From positions 1 to 64,000 of IMG/VR virus record IMGVR_UViG_3300025712_000004: 64,000 bases of DNA; one strand, written 5' to 3'. Shown one piece after another: positions 2,115-62,561 of this stretch. The translations under genes and the position numbers were made by a program. Every line of letters starts with the position of its first letter. The stretch's first letter is position 1. Under the pieces are notes generated by a model. The model was not told where the DNA came from and did not search any database. It saw only the letters and a program-made list of their open reading frames with translations. This DNA is from a virus.

Positions 2115-2143
2115 GATTGTATCCTATTCAATTAATTTAATAA

Positions 2144-2171
2144 AATACACTCTTGAATGTACTTTAGTAAA
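2144..2171 (-). promoter_or_regulatory. Possible sigma70-like promoter for 1527-2114
   Basis: On the minus strand TTTACT (2166-2171) is separated by 16 bases from TGTATT (2144-2149), the spacing used by the other promoters here. An 8-bp inverted repeat (2142-2149, 2158-2165) overlaps it. The -10 match is weak. Confidence 0.35.
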
Positions 2172-2602
2172 TAGAACTTAAAGGGAATGGGAAGATGTAC
2201 CATCATTGGTAGGAGAGGACCAATAACCGTACACCTTCCACGAAGGCAATCGTTCTCGATTAGCGAACCACCGTGTGGTGGAGCATGCTTTATCGTCAAT
2301 ATGACGGAATGTTACGAATGTTAACGTCCACTGGTAAACATACAAACTATCGGACGAGTACTAGGTTTTTATCGTGGTCTGCTTTGCCACTATCACACTC
2401 GCGCAGGGAGCTGTTCTTATGGGTAGCTGGGTCATGGTGTGCGGATATCGTCTACACAATTTGAGCATCAATGATAGGCTTGGTAGACATAAAATGTAAG
2501 TAGACCTCTTACAGCAGTATTCCTCCCTTACGGGGAATTGAATTCGGAACTACAGCATCACAGCTTTGTATATGACAGAGGCAATAGGCAAGTATTACAA
2601 TA

Positions 2603-2752
2603 TCATTTTGTCGCTTCTGTATGGTTTTGTGCTTGTTCCTGAAATGGTGGGAGCGTTGCAACCGTTACTGGTTTATCTGCGATTTCACACATATCGATAT
2701 GTTCCGCCTCCAAGCCAAGATAATGGCTATTATAATTTGTTACGTTAAACAC
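2603..2752 (-). CDS. Possible small protein or gene remnant (GTG start)
   Basis: A 49-codon minus-strand frame opens at a GTG and ends in TGA. The predicted peptide is soluble, with stretches such as HYLGLEAEHIDMCEIADK and VATLPPFQEQAQNH that look like real coding sequence. No good ribosome binding site precedes it. Just upstream another frame also reads like protein and then stops, so this may be the tail of a frameshifted gene. Treat as tentative. Confidence 0.22.
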   Translation of the reverse strand: MFNVTNYNSHYLGLEAEHIDMCEIADKPVTVATLPPFQEQAQNHTEATK

Positions 2753-2921
2753 AGACTTTTACTGCACCGTTTATTCCATAGCTAATGGATATTCCCCTTA
2801 ACGTCCGAGGTGGTGTTTACTTATATGTATTATGAACTTTGCTTAGTAGGTTGAGCACCTATCTTTAACATTCATTAGCATTTTCATACTTGAGAGTTCT
2901 CACACTCTTACACATTTAATT

Positions 2922-2999
2922 TGGTGAACCTAGGCGGACTCGAACCGCTCCTTCCTCCTGTTATGAGCAGGGAGCATTAACCAGTTATGCTATAGGTCC
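2922..2999 (-). tRNA. tRNA, anticodon CAT (Met or lysidine-type Ile)
   Basis: The cloverleaf reads well on the minus strand. The acceptor GGACCTA pairs with TAGGTTC, followed by discriminator A and an encoded CCA. The D-stem is GCAT/ATGC with GG in the loop. The anticodon loop CTCATAA sits on a four- to five-pair stem, and the T-arm has loop TTCGAGT. The anticodon CAT could be elongator Met or, after lysidine modification, Ile; sequence alone does not settle it. Confidence 0.85.
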
Positions 3000-3288
3000 A
3001 TATATTTTTGTTTGTATATTCAGGGAGTGCAAAGTGCCGTTACATAAACGCTACAATTCAAGTATGACTGTAACTGGTAATTCTACCGCATCTAGTCAAT
3101 TATACCATTACAATATAATCCGTAGAACATCTCTTTCCCATGTTAGCACCCGTATAGTGACTTAGTCACGAAGATACAAACAAAAATATTCCTTTACACA
3201 ACATATGAAAGGGGTAAATATGACCACTATTTACAAAGGGATTTATTAAACGTTTACAAGGCATAAACGGATACCATTCTTTCGAATT

Positions 3289-3428
3289 TGGCGGACTGTA
3301 TAGGATTCGAACCTTGACTGGGTTAGCATGACCCATCAGTAAACATATTAGGGACCAGTTCCCTACTTCAGATATAAACCTTTACGTTTTCGGCTTATTC
3401 GTTATATCGTTATGTTTTATTACAGTCC
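3289..3428 (-). tRNA. tRNA-like element of abnormal length (~140 nt)
   Basis: On the minus strand the 5' end GGACTGTA pairs perfectly with TACAGTCC, followed by G and an encoded CCA, as in a tRNA acceptor stem. A GGTTCGAATCC T-arm core is present, and a 5-bp stem with a 7-base loop containing TGC or GCT lies just before it. About 60 extra bases fill the D-side, and the T-stem has only three solid pairs. It may be a decaying tRNA or an interrupted one; function is uncertain. Confidence 0.4.
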
Positions 3429-3433
3429 ATATT

Positions 3434-3521
3434 TGGTTGAGATGGCTGGACTCGAACCAGCAAACCGTATACTCGGTGACAAACTCATTCGTCTGTTATG
3501 TTTCCGTTGCATCACATCTCT
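3434..3521 (-). tRNA. tRNA-like element, class II length, odd anticodon loop
   Basis: The 88-base minus-strand element ends in a perfect T-arm (GCTGG TTCGAGT CCAGC), acceptor CATCTCA, discriminator A and an encoded CCA. The 5' strand AGAGATG pairs except at the first position. A short D-arm with GG in the loop and a 4-bp variable arm fit a Ser/Leu/Tyr-type tRNA. The predicted anticodon loop lacks the usual U33, so it may be inactive. Confidence 0.45.
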
Positions 3522-3690
3522 TTAAAGTGTTGGGAGTCACCGTGCATAATGACTTTACGTGCTAACTCCTTCGTAGCACAACCTTTGTGACATTTGTTTA
3601 AACTTAGATACCCACGAAGCTCTTCCGTATCAGTATCCTCAATCGTTAAAGAGTGTCTTATCTCTTAAGCTGTCGGGCTTTATCCAACCA

Positions 3691-5078: not shown

Positions 5079-5194
5079 TCCTAATAGTACGAACAATAGA
5101 TTTAGGATTGATGATGAGCCGATTAATGAATGCTCTTCCTAATAGTACGAACAATAGATTTTAGAGTGATATTTTATTGTTCGTACTATTAGGA
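5079..5194. repeat. 20-bp motif, two direct copies and one inverted copy
   Basis: TCCTAATAGTACGAACAATA occurs at 5079-5098 and 5137-5156, with about 31 bp of flank-sharing identity, and as its exact reverse complement at 5175-5194. The second and third copies form a perfect 20-bp hairpin with an 18-base loop. I did not find the motif elsewhere in the window. It may be an initiator-binding site, a promoter for the phage RNA polymerase, or a terminator. Confidence 0.85.
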
Positions 5195-5224: not shown

Positions 5225-5274
5225 TATATACGTGTGCGCGTACACATACACGCACGTACACACGCATGCGCACA
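5225..5274. other. 50-bp perfect alternating pyrimidine-purine tract
   Basis: Every step from 5225 to 5274 alternates pyrimidine and purine, mixing TA, CG, TG and CA dinucleotides. Such tracts can flip to Z-DNA under negative supercoiling. The GC-rich tract stands out sharply from the AT-rich surroundings. Confidence 0.85.
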
Positions 5275-5534
5275 CCCGTTGTCTATTAAAAAATATACAA
5301 AAAGAATTCGTGCCTCATATTTTCGCACATTTTAACATTCAGATAAACTATCGTTCATCTTCATTAAACAAACATCAAAAACTAAACATGGTGGTCTTCG
5401 ACCACGCAGCTTCGCTGCAAAAACTTAATCTTAAATATTTTTATTGAAATAACATCATTAAATATTATAAAATCATTGCCAGTATCATTCTAGGCCGCAC
5501 ACGAGGCGGTGTTTGAAATAAAATAAAATAATCA

Positions 5535-5591: not shown

Positions 5592-7979
5592 ATGAATCAA
5601 TTTACACAGAGAGATTTCGAAGAATATACATCACAGTTGGGTACAGAAAAGATTATGTGTGCGGCAGACGATGCATCGAAAGATTTTGAGTCGAACCACT
5701 TAAAGAAAATCGTCAAAGAAATGATTGAGCCATTCGGTGATTACATCAACGAGAGAGCGAAATTAGAAGAGAAAAATTACACTAAGGGTCCGAAGCCATT
5801 AATATTAAAATTATTAAAATCTGACGCTCTGGTGAACTCTCGTAAGAACGATAAGACTATCACTCCGTTACAGTTGAGCTTTATCACGACTAAAATAGTA
5901 ATATCGTCGATTCGATGTAATGATGAGAACACCAAAGAGACCTATACCGCAAGCAAAATTGGTAAAGAAATCAATTTGAATTTGTGTCATGAATTTAGAT
6001 TATCTGAAGGTGAAGTAGTCAAGTATGGTGCGTTCATGGTGCGTTATTTTGCTGAAGCATTTCCACAATATGTTAGCGTGGATATGAGCTATGAAGATAG
6101 AAAATCTAAGTGGCAAGAGAAGCAACTAATACCGACCCAATTGTACCTCGATACGGTAGCAAACAACATTGAAACTTTAGCTGAATTATCTATCGTAACT
6201 TTTCCTATGGTTGAGAAGCCGATGGACTGGACAACCGATGGTAGCGATGGTGGTTATTACACAGAAATTTATAAACGTAACATCATTAAAAAGCGTCAGG
6301 TTGGCGAAGATGCTGGTATCAATACTAATATTTCTAGTGCCGTTAATTTAATCCAAAGCACACCATGGGAATTGAACTTGGATATTATTCATATCGTTGA
6401 TGATTTGAATAAAACTAAGCCAGAAAGTTTAAAGAAAGTTTTCCCGTTGGTTGTGGAAAAAACACCAGCTAAACCGTTCCCTGATGTTTTGTATCCTGAC
6501 ATGGATGAAGACCAACTCAAAATTCATCGTCAATGGTCATCTCTTGAGAAGAAACTCAAGAAGGATAGACAGGCTAAGATATCTGTCGATTTGGCGCGAG
6601 AGGGTGCATTAAGACAGGCTAAGTTCTTCATACATGATACTAAATTTCATAAAGGTAAACTATGGTTTCCACATGATTTAGATTACCGTATCAGAACATA
6701 TAACAAGTCGATGACCGGACTAAACACCCAAGGTGCAGACTTCCAAAAAGGTATGATTAAGTTTGCGAATAAGCATGCAGTAACTACCGATAATGGAATC
6801 AAATGGCTCAAGATAAATATGGCCAACTTGATTGGTTTCGATAAACTAAACTTAGCTGAGCGTATACAGAAATGTAATGAGCATGAAGGGTTAATTCGTG
6901 AAGTTGTTAAGAACCCGTACAAGTGCACTGAATGGCATAAGTGGGATAAACCAGTACAAGGTTTAGCTGCAGCGATTGAGTACGTTAAATGGCTCGATAA
7001 CGACCAAGCATTGCTACAAACCCATGTACAATTAGATGGATTATGTAACGGTGTGCAAAATTTGGCAGCGTTAACTCGTGACCATTTAGTTGCGCCACAT
7101 GTTGGTTTAATCTGGACACCAGAACGTGGTGATGTTTATGGTTATGTAAATAACTCAGTGATTGACCGTATAACGCCTCTAGGATGTCGTATGAGCGACG
7201 AATGGCTACGTTCCGAGCTAATGACTCGCGGACTAACTAAAACGCCAGTAATGACTCGCTCATACGGTGCAACGATATATGGCATCAAAGATGGTTGTAA
7301 AGAATATATCGAAGACCAAGGTAAGGCCGCACATTTTGAAGATTTGTTTAAGGCTGGTAATTGGATGGGGGAACGTATATGGGAATCGATGGAAGGTAGC
7401 TTAGCCGGACCTATGTCATTCATGGAGTGGGCGCAGAAATGTGCTGGTATATTGGCCAAAGCTAATTTACCTTTACCGTGGACTAATCCAGCGTTGGCTA
7501 AGTGTTTACAATCACCATTCGAGACTAAACGTAAAGAAATTAAAGTCAAGATTAATGGCCAAGCACAATCTTATTATATCATGAAGCATACTAATAAGAT
7601 TGCTCGTGCAAAATCAGAATCGAGTAGTTCACCAAACATGATTCATTCGTGTGATGGTAGCCATTTGATTGGCACAACTAATAGATGTGAAGTTAAAGGC
7701 ATTCGTGATTTTGCGATGGTACATGATAGCTTCGGTACTATACCGGACCACGCTGAAGGGCTATTAGATAGCACTAAAGATGCATGGGTAGACCAGTACA
7801 GTGAAGATTGGATTTTACGTTGGTATCATGAATGGGTAGACTTTGCGATTTCTAAAGGTAAGCCTGAAGTAGCTGCAGCAATACCACACCCATATAAAGA
7901 AGACGATGACGGTAAATTTGTTATCGTTGGTACACTTGATATTGAAGCTGTAAGAAAATCTGATTTTTTCTTTGCATAA
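5592..7979 (+). CDS. T7-like single-subunit DNA-directed RNA polymerase
   Basis: The 795-residue enzyme would transcribe phage DNA from its own promoters in the cytoplasm. It carries the hallmarks of the T7 family. Motif A is QLDGLCNGVQNLAAL, with the catalytic Asp at about 482. Motif B is VMTRSYGATIYG, with the key Tyr at about 558. Motif C is FAMVHDSFGTIPDHAEGL, with the second catalytic Asp at about 712. The conserved FPHDLDYR.R.Y segment lies near residue 360. T7 polymerase is 883 residues, so the N-terminal domain is shorter here. It starts at an ATG after GGAGAAAATA and is the first gene of the plus-strand block. The pairing with a T4-type replisome is unusual. No repeated T7-type promoter was obvious in the window; the motif at 5079-5194 is one candidate. 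Confidence 0.95.
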   Translation: MNQFTQRDFEEYTSQLGTEKIMCAADDASKDFESNHLKKIVKEMIEPFGDYINERAKLEEKNYTKGPKPLILKLLKSDALVNSRKNDKTITPLQLSFITTKIVISSIRCNDENTKETYTASKIGKEINLNLCHEFRLSEGEVVKYGAFMVRYFAEAFPQYVSVDMSYEDRKSKWQEKQLIPTQLYLDTVANNIETLAELSIVTFPMVEKPMDWTTDGSDGGYYTEIYKRNIIKKRQVGEDAGINTNISSAVNLIQSTPWELNLDIIHIVDDLNKTKPESLKKVFPLVVEKTPAKPFPDVLYPDMDEDQLKIHRQWSSLEKKLKKDRQAKISVDLAREGALRQAKFFIHDTKFHKGKLWFPHDLDYRIRTYNKSMTGLNTQGADFQKGMIKFANKHAVTTDNGIKWLKINMANLIGFDKLNLAERIQKCNEHEGLIREVVKNPYKCTEWHKWDKPVQGLAAAIEYVKWLDNDQALLQTHVQLDGLCNGVQNLAALTRDHLVAPHVGLIWTPERGDVYGYVNNSVIDRITPLGCRMSDEWLRSELMTRGLTKTPVMTRSYGATIYGIKDGCKEYIEDQGKAAHFEDLFKAGNWMGERIWESMEGSLAGPMSFMEWAQKCAGILAKANLPLPWTNPALAKCLQSPFETKRKEIKVKINGQAQSYYIMKHTNKIARAKSESSSSPNMIHSCDGSHLIGTTNRCEVKGIRDFAMVHDSFGTIPDHAEGLLDSTKDAWVDQYSEDWILRWYHEWVDFAISKGKPEVAAAIPHPYKEDDDGKFVIVGTLDIEAVRKSDFFFA

Positions 7980-7983
7980 AGTG

Positions 7984-8020
7984 TTGACATCATATTGGTG
8001 CCATGTATAATGGCTCCAAG
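7984..8020 (+). promoter_or_regulatory. Promoter-hairpin module
   Basis: TTGACA (7984-7989), 16-base spacer, TATAAT (8006-8011). Arms 7995-8004 and 8010-8019 form a 10-position inverted repeat with one mismatch; the -10 box starts in the loop and runs into the second arm. Confidence 0.85.
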
Positions 8021-9571: not shown

Positions 9572-9808
9572 ATGGCAATAACTATATCACCATACCAAGT
9601 AATAAAGCTCGATGGCGTCACAATAAATGATGTAAAATACTGCGACGAGCTTGAACGTCATTATGTTGAACATCGTGGCACTAATTATATAGTAGATGAA
9701 TATACTTTACCACAAACCGACGCGTTTACATTTACTGTGGTGTTGGTGGAAAATCCAAAATGTGATTTTTCTGGTGTTGGCGTAGTTCGGAGTATAAAAT
9801 GTTATTAA
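9572..9808 (+). CDS. Hypothetical protein, 78 aa
   Basis: Unrecognised small, mainly beta-strand protein (ISPYQVIKLDGVTINDVKYC, HRGTNYIVDEYTL). Good GCGGAGAAAAAAATA ribosome binding site, 14 bases after the previous stop. It is the last gene before the structured non-coding region. No motif that indicates function. Confidence 0.7.
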   Translation: MAITISPYQVIKLDGVTINDVKYCDELERHYVEHRGTNYIVDEYTLPQTDAFTFTVVLVENPKCDFSGVGVVRSIKCY

Positions 9809-9868
9809 GACACCATATAATATCCAAATTACATCTTAAATTTGGTATATACATCAAGCCAGAGTTTA

Positions 9869-9884
9869 TGCTATAATTCACACA
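9869..9884 (+). promoter_or_regulatory. Extended -10 promoter for non-coding RNA
   Basis: TGCTATAAT (9869-9877) is an extended -10 element. No clear -35 is present. The flanks GAGTTTATG and CACACACTC pair at 7 of 9 positions around the -10, echoing the promoter-hairpin modules. Confidence 0.5.
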
Positions 9885-10250
9885 CTCGATGTTTGTTGGT
9901 GAATCTAGAAGTTTTAGAACTGGACTGCATAAGATTACAATAACTAGGTCTGAGATATGGCCGATGCATTATACGATAACCTAAAAGGTTGTTCGTTCAA
10001 ATCATATTCAAAGAGTATGATTTGAACGGGCTATCTAACTAATAGCTAGTCGGGTAGTGCCGATGATGGGAAGTGGGCTTGTTACCCACAAAACACTAGG
10101 TTGTCCTAACCGTGATAGGAACATGACGAGGCATGAAGTGTATGGCTGGAGCGAAACCAGAAATGGTGGTTTACTGTGAAGCATATGTGATATTGATATG
10201 TGGAGTATCGGGGGAGCTGGGAAGCGGTGCTCACAACCTCCCAAATAATT
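9884..10250 (+). ncRNA. Candidate structured non-coding RNA, about 360 nt
   Basis: The 9809-10331 interval has no gene but many strong stem-loops in a row. They include a 13-bp stem (about 9994-10028), GTGGG/CCCAC with a 7-base loop, TCCTA/TAGGA with a 7-base loop, CTGG/CCAG with loop AGCGAAA, and an outer GGGAG/CTCCC stem near 10211-10243. It is GC-richer than its neighbours and is preceded by an extended -10 promoter. It resembles no RNA I can name: no RNase P core, no tmRNA end, no complete tRNA. Strand is inferred from the promoter and gene direction. Confidence 0.5.
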
Positions 10251-10251
10251 C

Positions 10252-10289
10252 TTGACAGAGTTATTTGGTTAGTTTAGAATTAACCAAAT
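10252..10289 (+). promoter_or_regulatory. Promoter-hairpin module
   Basis: TTGACA (10252-10257), 17-base spacer, TAGAAT (10275-10280). Perfect 9-bp arms 10263-10271 and 10281-10289 enclose the -10 box as the loop. Confidence 0.85.
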
Positions 10290-10331
10290 CGCTTTGATTT
10301 AAACAACTTAACTATATTATTGGAGAAAAAT

Positions 10332-10703
10332 ATGAACTTATTATCATTGATTACTTTAGGCTTATTCGGCAACAAAAAACGTAGCATCAGCGACATCGTA
10401 GAAACTTTCACTACGGTCCGTACAGAACTACAAAGTGCAGTGGAAGAAGCTCAAGAAGCTATCGATACGGCAGCGTTAGATAAAGCCAAAGCAGACGCAG
10501 TAGCGGAAGAAGCAATCAAAACCGCAGAAGCTCGTGCATTTGCACTTATCGCTAAAGCTAAAGCCGACGCGAAAGTTAGCCAAGGTAAAGCATTAGAAAA
10601 ACAAGCCAAAGTAATTGAATCTGGTATTACCGAAATTAAGTCGGCCAAATCATCGATTAAATTAGCCAACCAATGGCTAGAAAAAATTCCATCTATCGAC
10701 TAA
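10332..10703 (+). CDS. Hypothetical Ala/Lys-rich coiled-coil protein, 123 aa
   Basis: The protein opens with MNLLSLITLGLFGNKK, nearly the same as the start of the protein at 47821 (MKLLTVLTLGLYKTK). This suggests a shared N-terminal tag or domain. Residues 30-110 are Ala, Glu and Lys rich (EEAQEAIDTAALDKAKADA) and predict a long helix. I chose the ATG after GGAGAAAAAT over an in-frame TTG 12 bases upstream. A UUCG hairpin follows the stop. Role unknown. Confidence 0.75.
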   Translation: MNLLSLITLGLFGNKKRSISDIVETFTTVRTELQSAVEEAQEAIDTAALDKAKADAVAEEAIKTAEARAFALIAKAKADAKVSQGKALEKQAKVIESGITEIKSAKSSIKLANQWLEKIPSID

Positions 10704-10760: not shown

Positions 10761-11414
10761 ATGGCAAGACCACCAAATAAAGACATGTTGGCTGGCAATA
10801 AGCACCAATCAACATTTGGTTGGTTTATTATTATAAAATATTCAACAAGTAAAAATATAGAAATTTTGTTCGACGGTTCGGATAAAACAATGATTACAAC
10901 CAATGAAAGAATTCGAAGTGGTAATCTAAAGAACCCATCACACAAGTCAGTGTATGGTGTCGGGTATTTTGGATATGGAGAACATCGAGCAAAAATAGGA
11001 AACAGAGATACCAAGGTATATAAAGTTTGGCATGGTATGTTCCAAAGATGTTACTCTGATGGATATAAAAATACGTCATATGATGGGTGTATCGTATGTC
11101 CAGAATGGCACAATTTCCAGACATTTGCTGTTTGGTTCCATGATAATTATATAGCGGGATTCGAATTAGATAAAGATTCAATTGTTGTCGGAAATAAGAT
11201 TTACTCACCAACAACATGTAAATTTTTAAGTAAAATGGATAATGCGGCTTTACAATCAGCGTGCAAATACACAGTCCAAATGACTAACGGTATCGAGAGT
11301 GTTACATTCACAAACCAAAGAAAATTCTGTATAGAACATAACCTTTGCCACAAGGCTATAAACGCAGTTATTAAAGGGCGAACAAAACAACATAAACAAT
11401 GGAGATTATTATAA
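10761..11414 (+). CDS. Homing endonuclease-like protein with extra N-terminal and HTH domains
   Basis: The 217-residue protein has three parts. Residues 1-70 form a small beta domain (GWFIIIKYSTSKNIEILFDG, then SVYGVGYFGYG) often fused to phage homing nucleases. Residues 75-155 have the HNH-like family core: W.GMFQRCYS, C.VCPEWHNF, ELDKDSIVVGNKIYSPTTC. The C-terminus (FCIEHNLCHKAINAVIKGR) is a helix-turn-helix like NUMOD or intron-encoded nuclease repeats. The start is the ATG after GGAGATAAAA. It sits directly before uvsX, with overlapping stop and start, a typical site for a mobile gene next to a conserved replication gene. Confidence 0.7.
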   Translation: MARPPNKDMLAGNKHQSTFGWFIIIKYSTSKNIEILFDGSDKTMITTNERIRSGNLKNPSHKSVYGVGYFGYGEHRAKIGNRDTKVYKVWHGMFQRCYSDGYKNTSYDGCIVCPEWHNFQTFAVWFHDNYIAGFELDKDSIVVGNKIYSPTTCKFLSKMDNAALQSACKYTVQMTNGIESVTFTNQRKFCIEHNLCHKAINAVIKGRTKQHKQWRLL

Positions 11415-12412
11415 TGGCAAGCGCATTAATGAAAAGAATGATGAAAAATAGCACAGTTAATGGTACAGATATATTGGGTGAGTCTAAATATTTTAAACGA
11501 AGCTCGATAATGACTTCTATACCTTTACTAAATGTTGCGTTTTCTGGGGATTTTAATGGTGGTTTAAGCGCAGGTATAACTATGCTCGCTGGCGAGTCAC
11601 GAAGCTTCAAGACTGGGTTTTTAATTCAATTAGCACTAGCGTTCCAAACTAAACATAAAGATGGAATTGTATTGTTTTATGATAGTGAATATAGCTCACT
11701 AGAATATTGGATTTCCGCTGGCATCGATATGAATCGAGTATTGCATGTTCCAATAGAAACAGTCGAAGAACTCAAAATCGACATCACCCAACAACTAAAC
11801 GACATAGAAGAATCTGAGCATGTTATGGTTGTTATCGATTCCATTGGTGGATTGGCTAGCGCAAAAGAAGCTCAAGACGCAGAAGATGGTAAGTCTACAG
11901 TGGATATGTCTAGAGCCAAGGCAATGGCTAGTTTGTTCCGTATTATTACCCCTAAGCTAAACAAGCGAGATATACCATTAGTACTCATCAATTCATTCTA
12001 CGAAACGATTGAGATGTACAGTAAGCGAGTTTATGGTGGTGGTAAGAAGATATTCTTAGCTTCCGATGACGTATGGTTTATTTCTAGAGCACAAGACAAA
12101 GAAGGTAAAGATTTGGTTGGTTACAACTTCACCCTAAATATCGATAAGTCTCGTACCATCAAAGAAGGTAGCAAATTCCCAATAAATGTCACATGGGTCG
12201 ATGGTATAGATAAATACTCAGGTTTATATGAATTGGCCAAAGAATTTGGTGCTCTTCAGGTTGCTGGTGCGTGGGTTAAAGTTATGGACTTATCGACAGG
12301 TGAACTGTCGGGCAACAAACGTGCAGCAGCCATCGGTAGTGAATTTTATGATGAGTTATTAAAGCACCAACCGTTCGTAGATTTCGTCAAAAATAAATAT
12401 TGTTTAAACTAG
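11414..12412 (+). CDS. uvsX: UvsX/RecA-type recombinase
   Basis: The 332-residue ATPase would form filaments on single-stranded DNA and drive strand exchange and recombination-dependent replication. Walker A is GESRSFKT (about residues 60-67), close to T4 UvsX. A Walker B strand ends VMVVIDSIGG, and the segment VLINSFYETIEMYSKRVYGG matches the T4 loop after motif 4. Length agrees with T4 UvsX (391) minus a shorter C-terminus. The start ATG overlaps the stop of the homing gene (ATAATG). Its partners UvsY (48532) and gp32 (41734) are in the window. Confidence 0.93.
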   Translation: MASALMKRMMKNSTVNGTDILGESKYFKRSSIMTSIPLLNVAFSGDFNGGLSAGITMLAGESRSFKTGFLIQLALAFQTKHKDGIVLFYDSEYSSLEYWISAGIDMNRVLHVPIETVEELKIDITQQLNDIEESEHVMVVIDSIGGLASAKEAQDAEDGKSTVDMSRAKAMASLFRIITPKLNKRDIPLVLINSFYETIEMYSKRVYGGGKKIFLASDDVWFISRAQDKEGKDLVGYNFTLNIDKSRTIKEGSKFPINVTWVDGIDKYSGLYELAKEFGALQVAGAWVKVMDLSTGELSGNKRAAAIGSEFYDELLKHQPFVDFVKNKYCLN

Positions 12413-17860: not shown

Positions 17861-20800
17861 TTGAATATTAATAATGTAGAATTCCACATCGATGTGGATG
17901 TGGAAGCAGAGACCAAGCTCCAACAAATGATGGAGCACGTAATAAAACGCAATGGCGAAAAGGTAAAGTTCGTACCATCAAAATTGAATAAGTGGGCAGA
18001 GTGGGCTTGTAGTGGTCTATTTGGCGTTTCGTGGTCAGACATTGTCATGAAGGCCGTTAAGTCTGGTTATGATGGCATGCGCACAGAAGAGCTACAACGA
18101 TGTTTAATCGATGCATGTATCTCGATGGTAGAAGTCAACACCGATTACGAGAAAGTTGCTTCACGCCTCTATTTGGCAGACCTACGTAAGCGTGTATACG
18201 GTAAATACACACCACCAAACTTTATCGAGTTCTATAATAGTATGGTAACTCGTGGATTGTGGGAAGATATGGGATACACCACCAATGAACTTACTGATAT
18301 ATCAAAACATATTGACCATGACCGTGACGATAAATTCCCATATTCTGGCCTACGTCAAATGGGCGATAAATACCTGATGCGTAATAAAGTCACTGGGGAG
18401 CTATACGAGACGCCACAGTTCCTTTATATGGGTTTAGCTATGGCATCATTCCGTGGTGAGCCTTTGATTGATTTATTGGACTTCTATGACCGTTTAAGTA
18501 TGCATAAAGTTAATGTACCAACACCACCATTGGTTGGTTGCCGAACATCAGACAAAGGTTTTGCGTCTTGTTGCTTAATATCTGGTGGCGATACCGCGGA
18601 CTCCATTGAAGCCGCAGGGCATATCGTTTATCAAATGGTCAAGAACCGTTCAGGTATTGGTATCGAATTGGAAACTCGCGGACCAAATGAGCCAGTAAAA
18701 AATGGGCTTGTTCTGCATAATGGTAAAATGAATTATTACCGTATGATTGATGCATTAACTAAGGCAAACACTCAAGAGTGTTATGATGACCAAACTGATG
18801 TATTAACGAAACGTGGATTTGTTAAGTTTTCGGAATTAGTTGATGGTGATTTGGTTGCACAAGTACACAACGACCAAACGGTAGATTTTGTTAAACCGAC
18901 AAAAATGTTTTCTTATGACTATAAAGGGGATATGATATCGTTCAAAAAACGGGGCATCGATTTACTAGTAACACCGAATCACCGAATGGTTTCACGTAAA
19001 GTAAAATACGATGATGCGAGTCAACAAACATCTTTAGGTTATGATGAGTGTTCCGCTGAGTTTTGGAACCCGAAACGCACCGATTGTTTGGATTTTGGTG
19101 GGTCCGCAACTGGCAAATTGCAAACATTAAGCTGGATGCAACAGTTACAGATTGCATATCAGGCCGATGGTTATAAAATCAAAAATAAAGATTCATATTC
19201 TTATATATTTGGTTTTAAGAAATTAAGAAAGGTTGAGCGCCTGATTGAAATATTGAGCAACCTCGACGCCTGTTACACCACCAATGTACGACCAGATGGA
19301 GTAACCGAGATACGTATTCTTGCGAGCGATATGAATATGAAAAAATCACTATCTTGGGTGTATGATTTGGACATATCATCTGAATGGGGCGAAGAATTTA
19401 TCGAAGAATTGAGGTACTGGGATGGAGACTTAAAGAAACATGGTCGTGGTGGTATCGTATATAACACCTCAGATATAACATGTGCAGATGTTGTGCAGTA
19501 TGTAGCATCTTTAGTTCCAATGAAAAGTAGTGTCGGGTTATATGGTGGTGTATATAGAGTCACGTGCTTCACTGATGTTGGTTATATGACAGGGGAATCT
19601 ACACGAAAATCAACCATGGATTATGATGGTGTCGTTTATTGTGTGGAAGTACCAACGAATAATTTAATTGTCCGTCGTGGTGGTTATACGACCGTATGTG
19701 GAAACTCACGTGGTGGTAGTGCCACTATGCAATTTGCATTCTTCGACCCAGAAGTGACTACGTTATTAAAGTTGCGTAATCCAAAAACTGTTGATAAATC
19801 GCGTATCGATACAATGGATTATTCATTCGCAGTAAACAAATATTTCTGGTCACAGTATGTACAGGACGGACAAATTGCATTAATATCACCATATTATGGA
19901 CCGGACACACATAAGGCATTTTACGGTAAAGATATACATGCATTTATTGAAGCATATGAACGCGAAGTTAAGCAATGGAAAGATGCTAAAGTTATCCGAT
20001 TAGAAGATGGTAGCATGGTTAGTCCAATTAAATATATCAAAGCAAAAGAATTGCTAGAAGTATTTGCAGACCAACGAAGTGATACAGCCAGAATTTATAT
20101 GCATAATATCGATGAAACCAATCGACGTTCTACATATAAAGACCCTGTACGACAAAGCAACTTATGCCTTGAGATTGTAGAACCGACATCACCATATAGC
20201 CACATCACAGACCTATATTCGATTGATGGCAAAAACCCAATTTTCGGAAACGATGTAGATGGTGAATCAGCATTATGTAATTTGGGTGGTGTGGTTGTTA
20301 ACCGTATCGAAAATGATGCAGATTACGAACGAACTACATATTTGCTAGTGAAGTTTATCGATAACATTATCGAAATGCAAACATACCCGTTTCCTCATAT
20401 GGAATTTACATCGAAAAATCGACGTAATGTTGGTGTTGGTATTATAAACTTAGCACATGCCATGGCAGAGCGCGGTTTAAGTTATGCTAGTCGTGCTGGT
20501 AGAAATTATATGCACCACGAAGCCGAACGTATGAGCTTTTTCTTGCATAAAGCATCGATACGATTGGCAAAGGAAAAAGGACAATGTGATTGGTTCCATA
20601 AAACTACTTACAGTGATGGCGTATTACCAATAGATAACTTTAATAAGTTCGTTGACGAGTTCGTTGATGGTACGCTACGCTACGATTGGGAAGCCTTACG
20701 TATAGATATGGCAACATACGGTATGCGTAATAGCGTATTAGAAGCTTATATGCCAAGTGAATCGTCTTCGGTTACTATAGGCTGCACCAACGGTATTGAG

Positions 20801-21136
20801 CCAGCACGTCAGCACATGATAGTGAAGTCTAGTAGACAGGGGGATATTCCACAAATCGTGCCAGATTTCGACAAGTTACAGTTTGACTATGAATTGGCGT
20901 TTGATATTCCAGCAGAAGAATATTTGATTGCGATGGCAGTTTTGCAAAAATTCACTGGGCAATCAATATCAACTAATGTATACTACGACCTTAATAAGTT
21001 CGAAGACCGAATGGTGCCTTTATCATTAATCGTTCGACACTTATTATTATTCACTAAGTTGGGTGGTAAGACACTTTATTACCATAACAGTGATGTCAGT
21101 ATCAAGAAAGATGAATGCGAAAATTGTAGCATTTAG
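17861..21136 (+). CDS. nrdA: Ribonucleotide reductase class Ia alpha subunit with intein
   Basis: The 1091-residue product is NrdA interrupted by a 309-residue intein (residues 307-615). The exteins give about 780 residues, normal for phage NrdA. They include GCRTSDKGFASCCLISGGDT with an active-site Cys, KNRSGIGIELETRG, SRGGSATMQ right after the intein, NLCLEI and SSVTIGCTNGIEP. The N-terminal FVPSKLNKW.EWAC is ATP-cone-like, and the tail ECENCSI holds a redox-active Cys pair for glutaredoxin (24421). It starts at TTG with a good AGGAGAAAAATAA site. It makes deoxynucleotides with NrdB (21428). Confidence 0.95.
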   Translation: MNINNVEFHIDVDVEAETKLQQMMEHVIKRNGEKVKFVPSKLNKWAEWACSGLFGVSWSDIVMKAVKSGYDGMRTEELQRCLIDACISMVEVNTDYEKVASRLYLADLRKRVYGKYTPPNFIEFYNSMVTRGLWEDMGYTTNELTDISKHIDHDRDDKFPYSGLRQMGDKYLMRNKVTGELYETPQFLYMGLAMASFRGEPLIDLLDFYDRLSMHKVNVPTPPLVGCRTSDKGFASCCLISGGDTADSIEAAGHIVYQMVKNRSGIGIELETRGPNEPVKNGLVLHNGKMNYYRMIDALTKANTQECYDDQTDVLTKRGFVKFSELVDGDLVAQVHNDQTVDFVKPTKMFSYDYKGDMISFKKRGIDLLVTPNHRMVSRKVKYDDASQQTSLGYDECSAEFWNPKRTDCLDFGGSATGKLQTLSWMQQLQIAYQADGYKIKNKDSYSYIFGFKKLRKVERLIEILSNLDACYTTNVRPDGVTEIRILASDMNMKKSLSWVYDLDISSEWGEEFIEELRYWDGDLKKHGRGGIVYNTSDITCADVVQYVASLVPMKSSVGLYGGVYRVTCFTDVGYMTGESTRKSTMDYDGVVYCVEVPTNNLIVRRGGYTTVCGNSRGGSATMQFAFFDPEVTTLLKLRNPKTVDKSRIDTMDYSFAVNKYFWSQYVQDGQIALISPYYGPDTHKAFYGKDIHAFIEAYEREVKQWKDAKVIRLEDGSMVSPIKYIKAKELLEVFADQRSDTARIYMHNIDETNRRSTYKDPVRQSNLCLEIVEPTSPYSHITDLYSIDGKNPIFGNDVDGESALCNLGGVVVNRIENDADYERTTYLLVKFIDNIIEMQTYPFPHMEFTSKNRRNVGVGIINLAHAMAERGLSYASRAGRNYMHHEAERMSFFLHKASIRLAKEKGQCDWFHKTTYSDGVLPIDNFNKFVDEFVDGTLRYDWEALRIDMATYGMRNSVLEAYMPSESSSVTIGCTNGIEPARQHMIVKSSRQGDIPQIVPDFDKLQFDYELAFDIPAEEYLIAMAVLQKFTGQSISTNVYYDLNKFEDRMVPLSLIVRHLLLFTKLGGKTLYYHNSDVSIKKDECENCSI
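18779..19705 (+). other. Intein in NrdA, probable degenerate DOD endonuclease domain
   Basis: The 309-residue insert begins at Cys307 (CYDDQTDVLTKRGF, block A), has block B near LLVTPNHRMVSRK, and ends VYCVEVPTNNLIVRRGG...TVCGN, with terminal Asn615 and +1 Ser. The penultimate residue is Gly instead of the usual His. Middle segments QIAYQADGYKI and LRYWDGDLKK resemble the two LAGLIDADG helices but look diverged, so nuclease activity is doubtful. It sits just before SRGGSATM, a conserved active-site segment and a typical intein site. Confidence 0.88.
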
Positions 21137-60749: not shown

Positions 60750-61153
60750 TGATTGAAGTTAAAATAGGTGATGTGGTTAAAGTAACCGTATCCGATACAT
60801 TACCATACGCCAACCCATACCGTAAAGGTACAACTGGCGTAGTCAAAGCTATATCTTTGTCTGGTAGAGTTGTATTGCTTAAAGTACGCGGACAGCATAA
60901 TAAAGTTACTGTTCCGTTGTATCATTTAAAATTTCACCAAATACCAAAATTTGTTGTTGACATGAGAGACAGTCATGGTAATATTGTTCAAGCAAAAGTC
61001 GGTGACCTATTTGCTGCTTATAGTTTCTCGAAGAAACGTGTTATGGTGGTTCGCATAGAATCAATCAAGAAGCGGTTTAGTTTGGATGGGTGGAAGAACT
61101 CACCGAAAGCAAGCCAATGTATATTTATAGGAGAATATCATGCAAGAGATTAA
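60749..61153 (+). CDS. Hypothetical KOW/SH3-like protein, 134 aa
   Basis: Two beta-rich halves (VKIGDVVKVTVSD, TGVVKAISLSGRVVLLKVRG; then VVDMRDSHGNIVQAKVGDLF) suggest tandem SH3/KOW-like folds that often bind nucleic acid. It is coupled to its neighbours: its start overlaps the DexA stop and its end overlaps the thymidylate synthase start by 14 bases. Confidence 0.62.
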   Translation: MIEVKIGDVVKVTVSDTLPYANPYRKGTTGVVKAISLSGRVVLLKVRGQHNKVTVPLYHLKFHQIPKFVVDMRDSHGNIVQAKVGDLFAAYSFSKKRVMVVRIESIKKRFSLDGWKNSPKASQCIFIGEYHARD

Positions 61154-62561
61154 AAAAATTATTAATAATGTTATGTTACTTGGTACATCAAGAAATACTC
61201 GTGCCGGAGTAACCACCAGTAAGTTTTTCGAAACTGTATCGTTTAACCTACAAGATGGGTTCCCTGCAGTTACTTGTAAACAATTGGCGTTTAAGTCTAT
61301 GATGGGTGAATTGTTACTATTTTGTGGTGGTGTGGCAGACCGTCGATTGATGAGCGAAAACTTCAATGATTCCAATTGGGATATATGGAAGCAAGATTGT
61401 GAGAGAAAATCGAAAGAAGACCCATCAAGGTTTAATGGTTATAATATGGGCGAAATGTATCCAGAAATGTGGAGAATGCGTAGAATATCTCCCAGCGGAA
61501 CAATAGAACTAAAACCACGAACAGATTTAGATTCCAACGAAACGGTAAAAGGTATACCCAGTGTTTGTGGTTTTGGTATTAATGATTATCCTGATGGTCG
61601 AAGAGAAAATCCAAAAATATATAGAATATGGATGGATATGATTATTCGATGTTATGGTTCCAGACCGCACCATAAAAAATATAGAGAAAATGGTTGTTCG
61701 GTGAGTCCTAGATGGCAATCGTTTAGAAACTTCTACAATGATGTGTTTTCGATTTCGGGTTTTCAAAGTTGGGTGGATGATAGTGGAAATTTCTCTTTAG
61801 ATAAAGATTATTTTGGGTCTAATGTATATTCTAGAAATACTTGCATATTTTTAGAATCGAACATAAACAGAAAATTAAATGGGGGTGGGCAAGGTCTTCG
61901 AATATTTAAGGTAGGTGATGATATACTATTCGGCCTACAGGAATTAGCCGATAGATTTGATACGTATAGACAACATGATTTGGTTGGTCGATTACTTAAG
62001 AGTGGGTGTGATTTTATTGAGATATATGACAGTGTGGATGTAATTTATAGACCGAAAATATTTGTAGACCAATTACAAGATGCAATTGATAAATTAATAA
62101 ACGACCCAACTGGTCGATACGCCTTAATCGATAATTGGAACATCGATTATAAGAAAAAGGCAGTGTTGGGTGCTTGCCATAATATGTTACAGTTTTATGT
62201 TAGAGATGCCGGAGGTAAGAAATATTTAGATATGGCTTGGCACCAACGCTCTGTGGATGTATTTCTGGGCCTTCCTTTTAATATTGCTAGCTATGCAGCA
62301 CTAGTACACATATTAGCTCAAATTTGTGGGTATGAAGTTGGTATGCTGCATGGTACATTGGGCGATGTACATATTTATGAGCAACATGTAGATGGATGCA
62401 CAGAATATCTAAGCCGTGATTGTTTAGAACTGCCACAGCTATTTATTATGCCTGATGTTAATTCTCTTAGCGATTTGGAGAAATTAACCGCCAAGGATTT
62501 TTCTTTGGTTAATTATAAACATCATGGTAAAATTGCTGGTAAACTTAGTGTAGGTAACTAA
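61140..62561 (+). CDS. td: Thymidylate synthase with in-frame homing-endonuclease-like insertion
   Basis: The 473-residue frame holds a ThyA-type thymidylate synthase split by about 190 residues. Residues 1-116 (MLLGTSRNTRAG, VSFNLQDGFPAVTCKQL, YNMGEMYPEMW) and 306-473 (GACHNMLQFYV with catalytic Cys346, WHQRSVDVFLGLPFNIASY, LGDVHIYEQHVD) together give about 285 residues, a normal enzyme. It converts dUMP to dTMP with methylene-folate, working with the DHFR and dCMP deaminase here. The insert lies in the variable small-domain region where Lactobacillus casei enzyme also has extra residues. No stop, intein motif or intron boundary is apparent. Good GGAGAATATC site. Confidence 0.9.
   Translation: MQEIKKIINNVMLLGTSRNTRAGVTTSKFFETVSFNLQDGFPAVTCKQLAFKSMMGELLLFCGGVADRRLMSENFNDSNWDIWKQDCERKSKEDPSRFNGYNMGEMYPEMWRMRRISPSGTIELKPRTDLDSNETVKGIPSVCGFGINDYPDGRRENPKIYRIWMDMIIRCYGSRPHHKKYRENGCSVSPRWQSFRNFYNDVFSISGFQSWVDDSGNFSLDKDYFGSNVYSRNTCIFLESNINRKLNGGGQGLRIFKVGDDILFGLQELADRFDTYRQHDLVGRLLKSGCDFIEIYDSVDVIYRPKIFVDQLQDAIDKLINDPTGRYALIDNWNIDYKKKAVLGACHNMLQFYVRDAGGKKYLDMAWHQRSVDVFLGLPFNIASYAALVHILAQICGYEVGMLHGTLGDVHIYEQHVDGCTEYLSRDCLELPQLFIMPDVNSLSDLEKLTAKDFSLVNYKHHGKIAGKLSVGN
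61488..62054 (+). other. Homing-endonuclease-like domain inside thymidylate synthase
   Basis: Residues about 117-305 contain SVCGFGINDYPDG, the family start seen in five free-standing paralogs. Then follow YRIWMDMIIRCYGS, CSVSPRWQSFRNFYNDVF, LDKDYFGSNVYSRNTCIF and a helix-turn-helix-like end (LFGLQELADRFDTYRQHD, VGRLLKSGCDFIEIYD). Ends are placed by comparison with standard ThyA and are approximate. It lacks N- and C-terminal splicing residues, so it is not an intein. Confidence 0.8.

Follow-up and report, generated by a model that had tools for sequence, protein, structure and literature searches.

A gene-free, hairpin-rich element between the RNA polymerase and UvsX genes of an unclassified phage: a possible early non-coding RNA

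To our knowledge, functions have been assigned to few of the RNAs that phages encode. GOLLD, ROOL and similar RNAs are large, ornate phage RNAs represented in Rfam. Small phage-encoded RNAs in general are reviewed in PMC12197685. In T4-like phages, PeSL promoter/stem-loop cassettes are described in PMC4503421 (with reference to Arbiol 2010 and Comeau 2014) as bordering shuffled gene modules.

The element described here shares its phage setting, a promoter-like site of its own, the lack of an ORF and short hairpins with phage-encoded small RNAs; it differs in being a putative RNA with neither a sequence family nor an assigned target. Like GOLLD and ROOL it is a large non-coding element in a phage, but it matches none of them, whether at gathering score or up to E 10, is shorter, and lies away from tRNAs. 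PeSLs join an early promoter and a stem-loop where modules meet, as is seen at 10241-10296; however, they are borders and not a 400-nt RNA, and the dyad here spans the -10 itself. RNAs from early phage regions are candidates for roles in host takeover or counter-defence, and the locus is defined and testable.

Genomic setting, borders and searches for relatives

The window (the whole stretch of DNA that was analysed, 64,000 nt) makes up the opening 64 kb of a virus record 97,805 bases long. The phage is unclassified. Among its genes are a T7-type RNA polymerase (5592-7979) and a UvsX/RecA protein (11399-12412); it also encodes NAMPT, ribonucleotide reductase and other replication genes. The searches found no close relative of the phage. 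The nearest is IMG/VR contig L014, which has the best UvsX match (about 56%); Vibrio phages V6Aob, 2.058.O and henriette 12B8 come next (about 49-51%). In L014 two unrelated ORFs, with no gap, separate the RNA polymerase and UvsX genes, and the element is absent. On sequence comparison, the early region between these two genes appears plastic.

No plausible gene is present in 9809-10331. The longest ORF there is at most 69 aa, ORFs of 31-40 aa exist on the + strand, and PHROGs and Pfam searches gave no convincing match for the short ORFs. The GC content of the element is 0.431 (43%), compared with 0.374 (37%) for the genome and 35% for other intergenic DNA; this is in the top 3.6% of windows. 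The lack of genes and the raised GC had both been claimed in an earlier note made from the sequence, and both claims hold.

At the 5' edge, the extended -10 reported in that note is indeed found (TGCTATAAT, 9869-9877), but its -35, TATACA, is weak and promoter-type matches are near chance by count (4 found, 3.0 expected). Transcription from this site is predicted to start at about 9884. The inverted repeat just upstream is one of only two of the CCAAAT...ATTTGG type in the window, where 0.34 would be expected; the second copy is at 10241-10268. A new promoter does follow directly after the region, as had been proposed; it is near-consensus, and the promoter proper spans 10252-10280. The outer stem proposed near the 3' end is predicted, but weakly. 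Two 3' hairpins (10241-10268 and 10255-10296) share an ATTTGG arm and are mutually exclusive. The 3' border has the PeSL-type combination of a promoter (10252) and a long dyad, with a putative role as terminator.

Table 1. Features of the element, its surroundings and the loci compared with it
Feature	Position	Strand	Remarks
tRNA-Met	2922-2999	-	
tRNA-like 3' half	3286-3313	-	acceptor partner unusually far upstream
Degenerate/weaker tRNA-like element	3437-3521	-	28.7 bits
Upstream ORF, 78 aa	ends 9808		
Inverted repeat CCAAAT...ATTTGG	9824-9845		just 5' of promoter
Sigma70-type promoter	9848-9877	+	-35 TATACA, 18-nt spacer, extended -10 TGCTATAAT; consensus match only
Putative non-coding RNA body	9884-10240	+	both strands lack a convincing ORF; G 27.5%, C 15.7%
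Possible multibranched domain	9959-10147	+	closed by a helix in which 9959-9970 pairs with 10137-10147 over about 11 bp, at a probability of about 0.6; single-sequence prediction
8-bp hairpin	9975-9993	+	abuts next hairpin; pair probability 0.79
Dominant 16-bp hairpin	9994-10028	+	13 bp perfect, one G-U; AAA loop; probability 0.99
5-bp stem, 7-base loop	10030-10046	+	loop CUAACUA
5-bp stem, 7-base loop	10073-10089	+	loop CUUGUUA
5-bp stem, 7-base loop	10104-10120	+	loop ACCGUGA
6-bp stem, 7-base loop	10154-10172	+	loop GAAAUGG; competes with 10145-10159
12-bp hairpin at 3' end, terminator-like	10241-10268	+	poor U tract; includes -35 of next promoter; z -4.9
Next promoter, composite promoter/stem-loop	10252-10296	+	TTGACA-17-TAGAAT; 19-nt-arm dyad around -10; z -7.0
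Downstream gene, 123-aa coil-rich protein	10332-10703	+	own promoter and Shine-Dalgarno sequence; weak matches only
Vibrio-phage non-coding stretch	L012:3640-3860	+	
Vibrio-phage non-coding stretch	L010:6348-6576	-	
Vibrio-phage non-coding stretch	L013:29142-29372	-	

No Rfam family matches at gathering score, and matches up to E 10 in 9700-10400 are at chance level; riboswitch and leader families in Rfam likewise have no match in the stretch. Neither ARAGORN nor the tRNA model detects a tRNA or tmRNA, despite the four 7-base loops. No homologues were found by blastn in phages and plasmids, by nhmmer in an initial set of collected loci, or in 38 related records, where the best match (23 nt, E 0.005) was judged to be chance. 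Four exact sub-patterns gave few matches in IMG/VR or the genome collection, and these were attributed to chance from their sequence context or expected number. A resemblance to a CRISPR repeat at 10272-10304 is at chance level (E 3.1). The longest perfect complement to other phage genes is 14 nt, slightly longer than in shuffles and unconvincing as a sign of antisense action.

The three Vibrio phages named above share a conserved stretch of non-coding DNA, about 220 nt long, which is absent from Rfam. These phages have a similar UvsX, and their stretch, like the element, is non-coding and downstream of the phage RNA polymerase gene. It differs in preceding tRNAs and in showing sequence similarity to the element no higher than shuffles (alignment scores of 24 and 23, shuffles 23.6 and 24.3); kinship was rejected, and the two are separate elements. 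As these phages have an unrelated non-coding stretch after RNA polymerase, the neighbourhood does harbour non-coding elements.

Local hairpins and folding energy

Local hairpins are truly enriched above chance. The element contains 29 perfect hairpins with stems of 4 bp or more, where shuffles give 11.4 +/- 4.1. Four stems of 5-6 bp enclose 7-base loops (shuffle mean 0.39), a count reached by none of 1000 shuffles; about 1% of genome windows contain at least four such hairpins, and these include the tRNA region. The anatomy given in the earlier note was largely right. Its 13-bp perfect stem is present at 9994-10028 and extends to 16 bp when one G-T is counted; this sole non-standard pair is G-U on the + strand, so it would still be paired in the putative RNA. 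Two 5-bp stems with 7-base loops had been counted; such stems exist, but there are four, of 5-6 bp (at 10030, 10073, 10104 and 10154).

The description of the region as strongly structured has to be qualified. The folding-energy excess ranges from z -2.5 to -3.7 across tests, the latter for the likely transcript (9884-10268). For the whole region, z is -2.9 on the + strand and -3.4 on the - strand; because both are unusual, the signal is not strand-specific. The excess traces to two places, the hairpin at 9994-10028 and the dyad at 10241-10268. Once the hairpin is removed z is -0.55, and two sub-regions taken alone, 10029-10240 (z -0.06) and 9884-9990 (z +0.18), fold no better than shuffles. 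The whole region therefore does fold better than shuffled sequence, but most of its length does not, and minimum free energy, with its excess confined to two places, gives no support for a globally stable fold.

Possible roles of the element

With a promoter-like site of its own, a lack of genes and small hairpins in an unusual series, the element is probably an early phage RNA. The best explanation is a more specific one and is held tentatively: a lineage-specific early non-coding RNA, situated in a plastic module between promoter/stem-loop cassettes and perhaps serving host takeover. Early promoters with PeSL-like dyads are present, and the stretch therefore looks like a module with RNA cargo instead of an ORF. 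Such an RNA would be about 360-410 nt long (about 9884 to 10240-10296) and would be transcribed early by host RNA polymerase, as a self-contained module lying after the phage RNA polymerase gene and before UvsX. Its start would be set by the extended -10 promoter; the end, or a processing site, would most likely be at the composite stem-loop/promoter 10241-10296, where the next unit begins. The RNA is predicted to fold as a run of short hairpins and may act in trans on a host protein or RNA, to which it would bind in the course of takeover or counter-defence. Counting against an RNA are the equally unusual folding of the minus strand, the poor U tract of the 3' hairpin and the near-chance promoter count. 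The earlier proposal, a dedicated phage RNA whose class is unknown, is in line with the promoter-like site, the absence of a gene, the serial hairpins, the raised GC and the 3' dyad, but no homologue was found and most of the length is shuffled-like; the Rfam scan agrees as to class, while the dedicated RNA itself is putative.

It is also conceivable, although somewhat unlikely, that this is a decayed or filler module, in which what is left of an ORF or RNA gene was swapped between promoter/stem-loop cassettes and is now functionless. The plastic interval between RNA polymerase and UvsX, filled in L014 by two unrelated ORFs and no such stretch, would agree with this, as would the shuffled-like folding of most of the element and the lack of visible conservation in the relatives searched. 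However, the ORFs tested contain no protein remnant, GC is above that of other intergenic DNA, and the hairpins are ordered; phages seldom retain 400 nt of dead DNA within a compact early region. An unlikely reading is that of a long 5' leader (an attenuator or regulator) of gene 10332, with read-through from 9884 and the exclusive hairpins 10241-10268 or 10255-10296 deciding whether the gene is transcribed. The shared arm of these hairpins, the weak U tract of the terminator-like site and the common strand of stretch and gene are consistent with a leader. Yet gene 10332 has a near-consensus promoter (10252-10280) after the stretch and its own Shine-Dalgarno sequence, similar promoter dyads occur elsewhere in the genome without such leaders, and riboswitch and leader families are unmatched.

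It is very unlikely that the element works at the level of DNA, for example as a replication origin primed by transcription. Such a role would account for a promoter and strong hairpin beside UvsX and for a folding excess that is equal on both strands, but the cumulative GC-skew minimum is at about 5.2-5.6 kb, with three 20-nt repeats at 5079, 5137 and 5175, and the stretch lacks iterons. The + strand ORFs might encode one or more very short peptides; they have no family match and typical Shine-Dalgarno spacing is not seen by eye, which makes this reading extremely unlikely. As for the preferred reading of an early RNA, a bolder form of it is highly improbable: that the string of anticodon-arm-sized hairpins is a new early phage RNA class, a decoy or inhibitor of host RNA-targeting defence (e.g. 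anticodon nuclease), in a phage that also has an abiF-RNA-like motif. The element is one orphan among many, and its value therefore hinges on relatives or a transcript.

The tRNA region and other features of the genome

An abiF RNA motif (RF03085) is located at 2450-2487 on the - strand. It scores 33.3 bits against a gathering score of 37 (E 1.3e-5 in its own genome), and its conserved core is intact. No Abi_2/AbiF protein was found in the phage record. The exact abiF core pattern occurs in 36 IMG/VR contigs, 34 of which lack an Abi_2 match over their whole length, a missing match being weak evidence of absence in contig fragments. By our own count, 14 of the 36 have a tRNA gene no more than about 200 nt from the motif. 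In C. difficile, the motif belongs to an RNA which regulates a phage-encoded AbiF system (PMC12373285), and an abiF RNA is annotated in cyanophage S-CREM1 (PMC9964418). Orphan abiF motifs in phages could be decoys against AbiF, possibly widespread ones. The side findings, above all the abiF motif without an AbiF gene, may outweigh the main element. The region 2115-3690 (- strand) comprises about 1.6 kb of non-coding DNA; besides the tRNA and tRNA-like features in Table 1, it holds an 800-nt structured-looking stretch.

Strong sigma70-type promoters whose -10 lies within a long dyad, at its centre or in its loop, are found at 7984, 8935, 10252, 12800, 15327, 24360, 25196, 31102, 33606, 47632, 55189 and 62795, and at L093 753 (record 64753). 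The dyad arms vary from promoter to promoter with complementarity kept, and some + strand stems have G-T pairs. These dyads are PeSL-like, or may represent a hairpin/cruciform promoter design.

Three copies of TCCTAATAGTACGAACAATA (5079-5098, 5137-5156 and 5175-5194), two direct and one inverted, precede a GT/AC-rich tract of alternating purines and pyrimidines (about 5226-5275). Lying at the GC-skew minimum and upstream of the RNA polymerase gene, the repeats are a candidate origin or operator. The record starts with two tandem copies of a 47-nt unit (1-94). The thymidylate synthase ORF (61140-62561) has an in-frame HNH-endonuclease-like insert (GVGINDADY family), and the ribonucleotide reductase large subunit (17861-21136) has an intein-like insertion which starts with CYDDQTDVLTKRGFVKFSE and ends near TTVCGNS.
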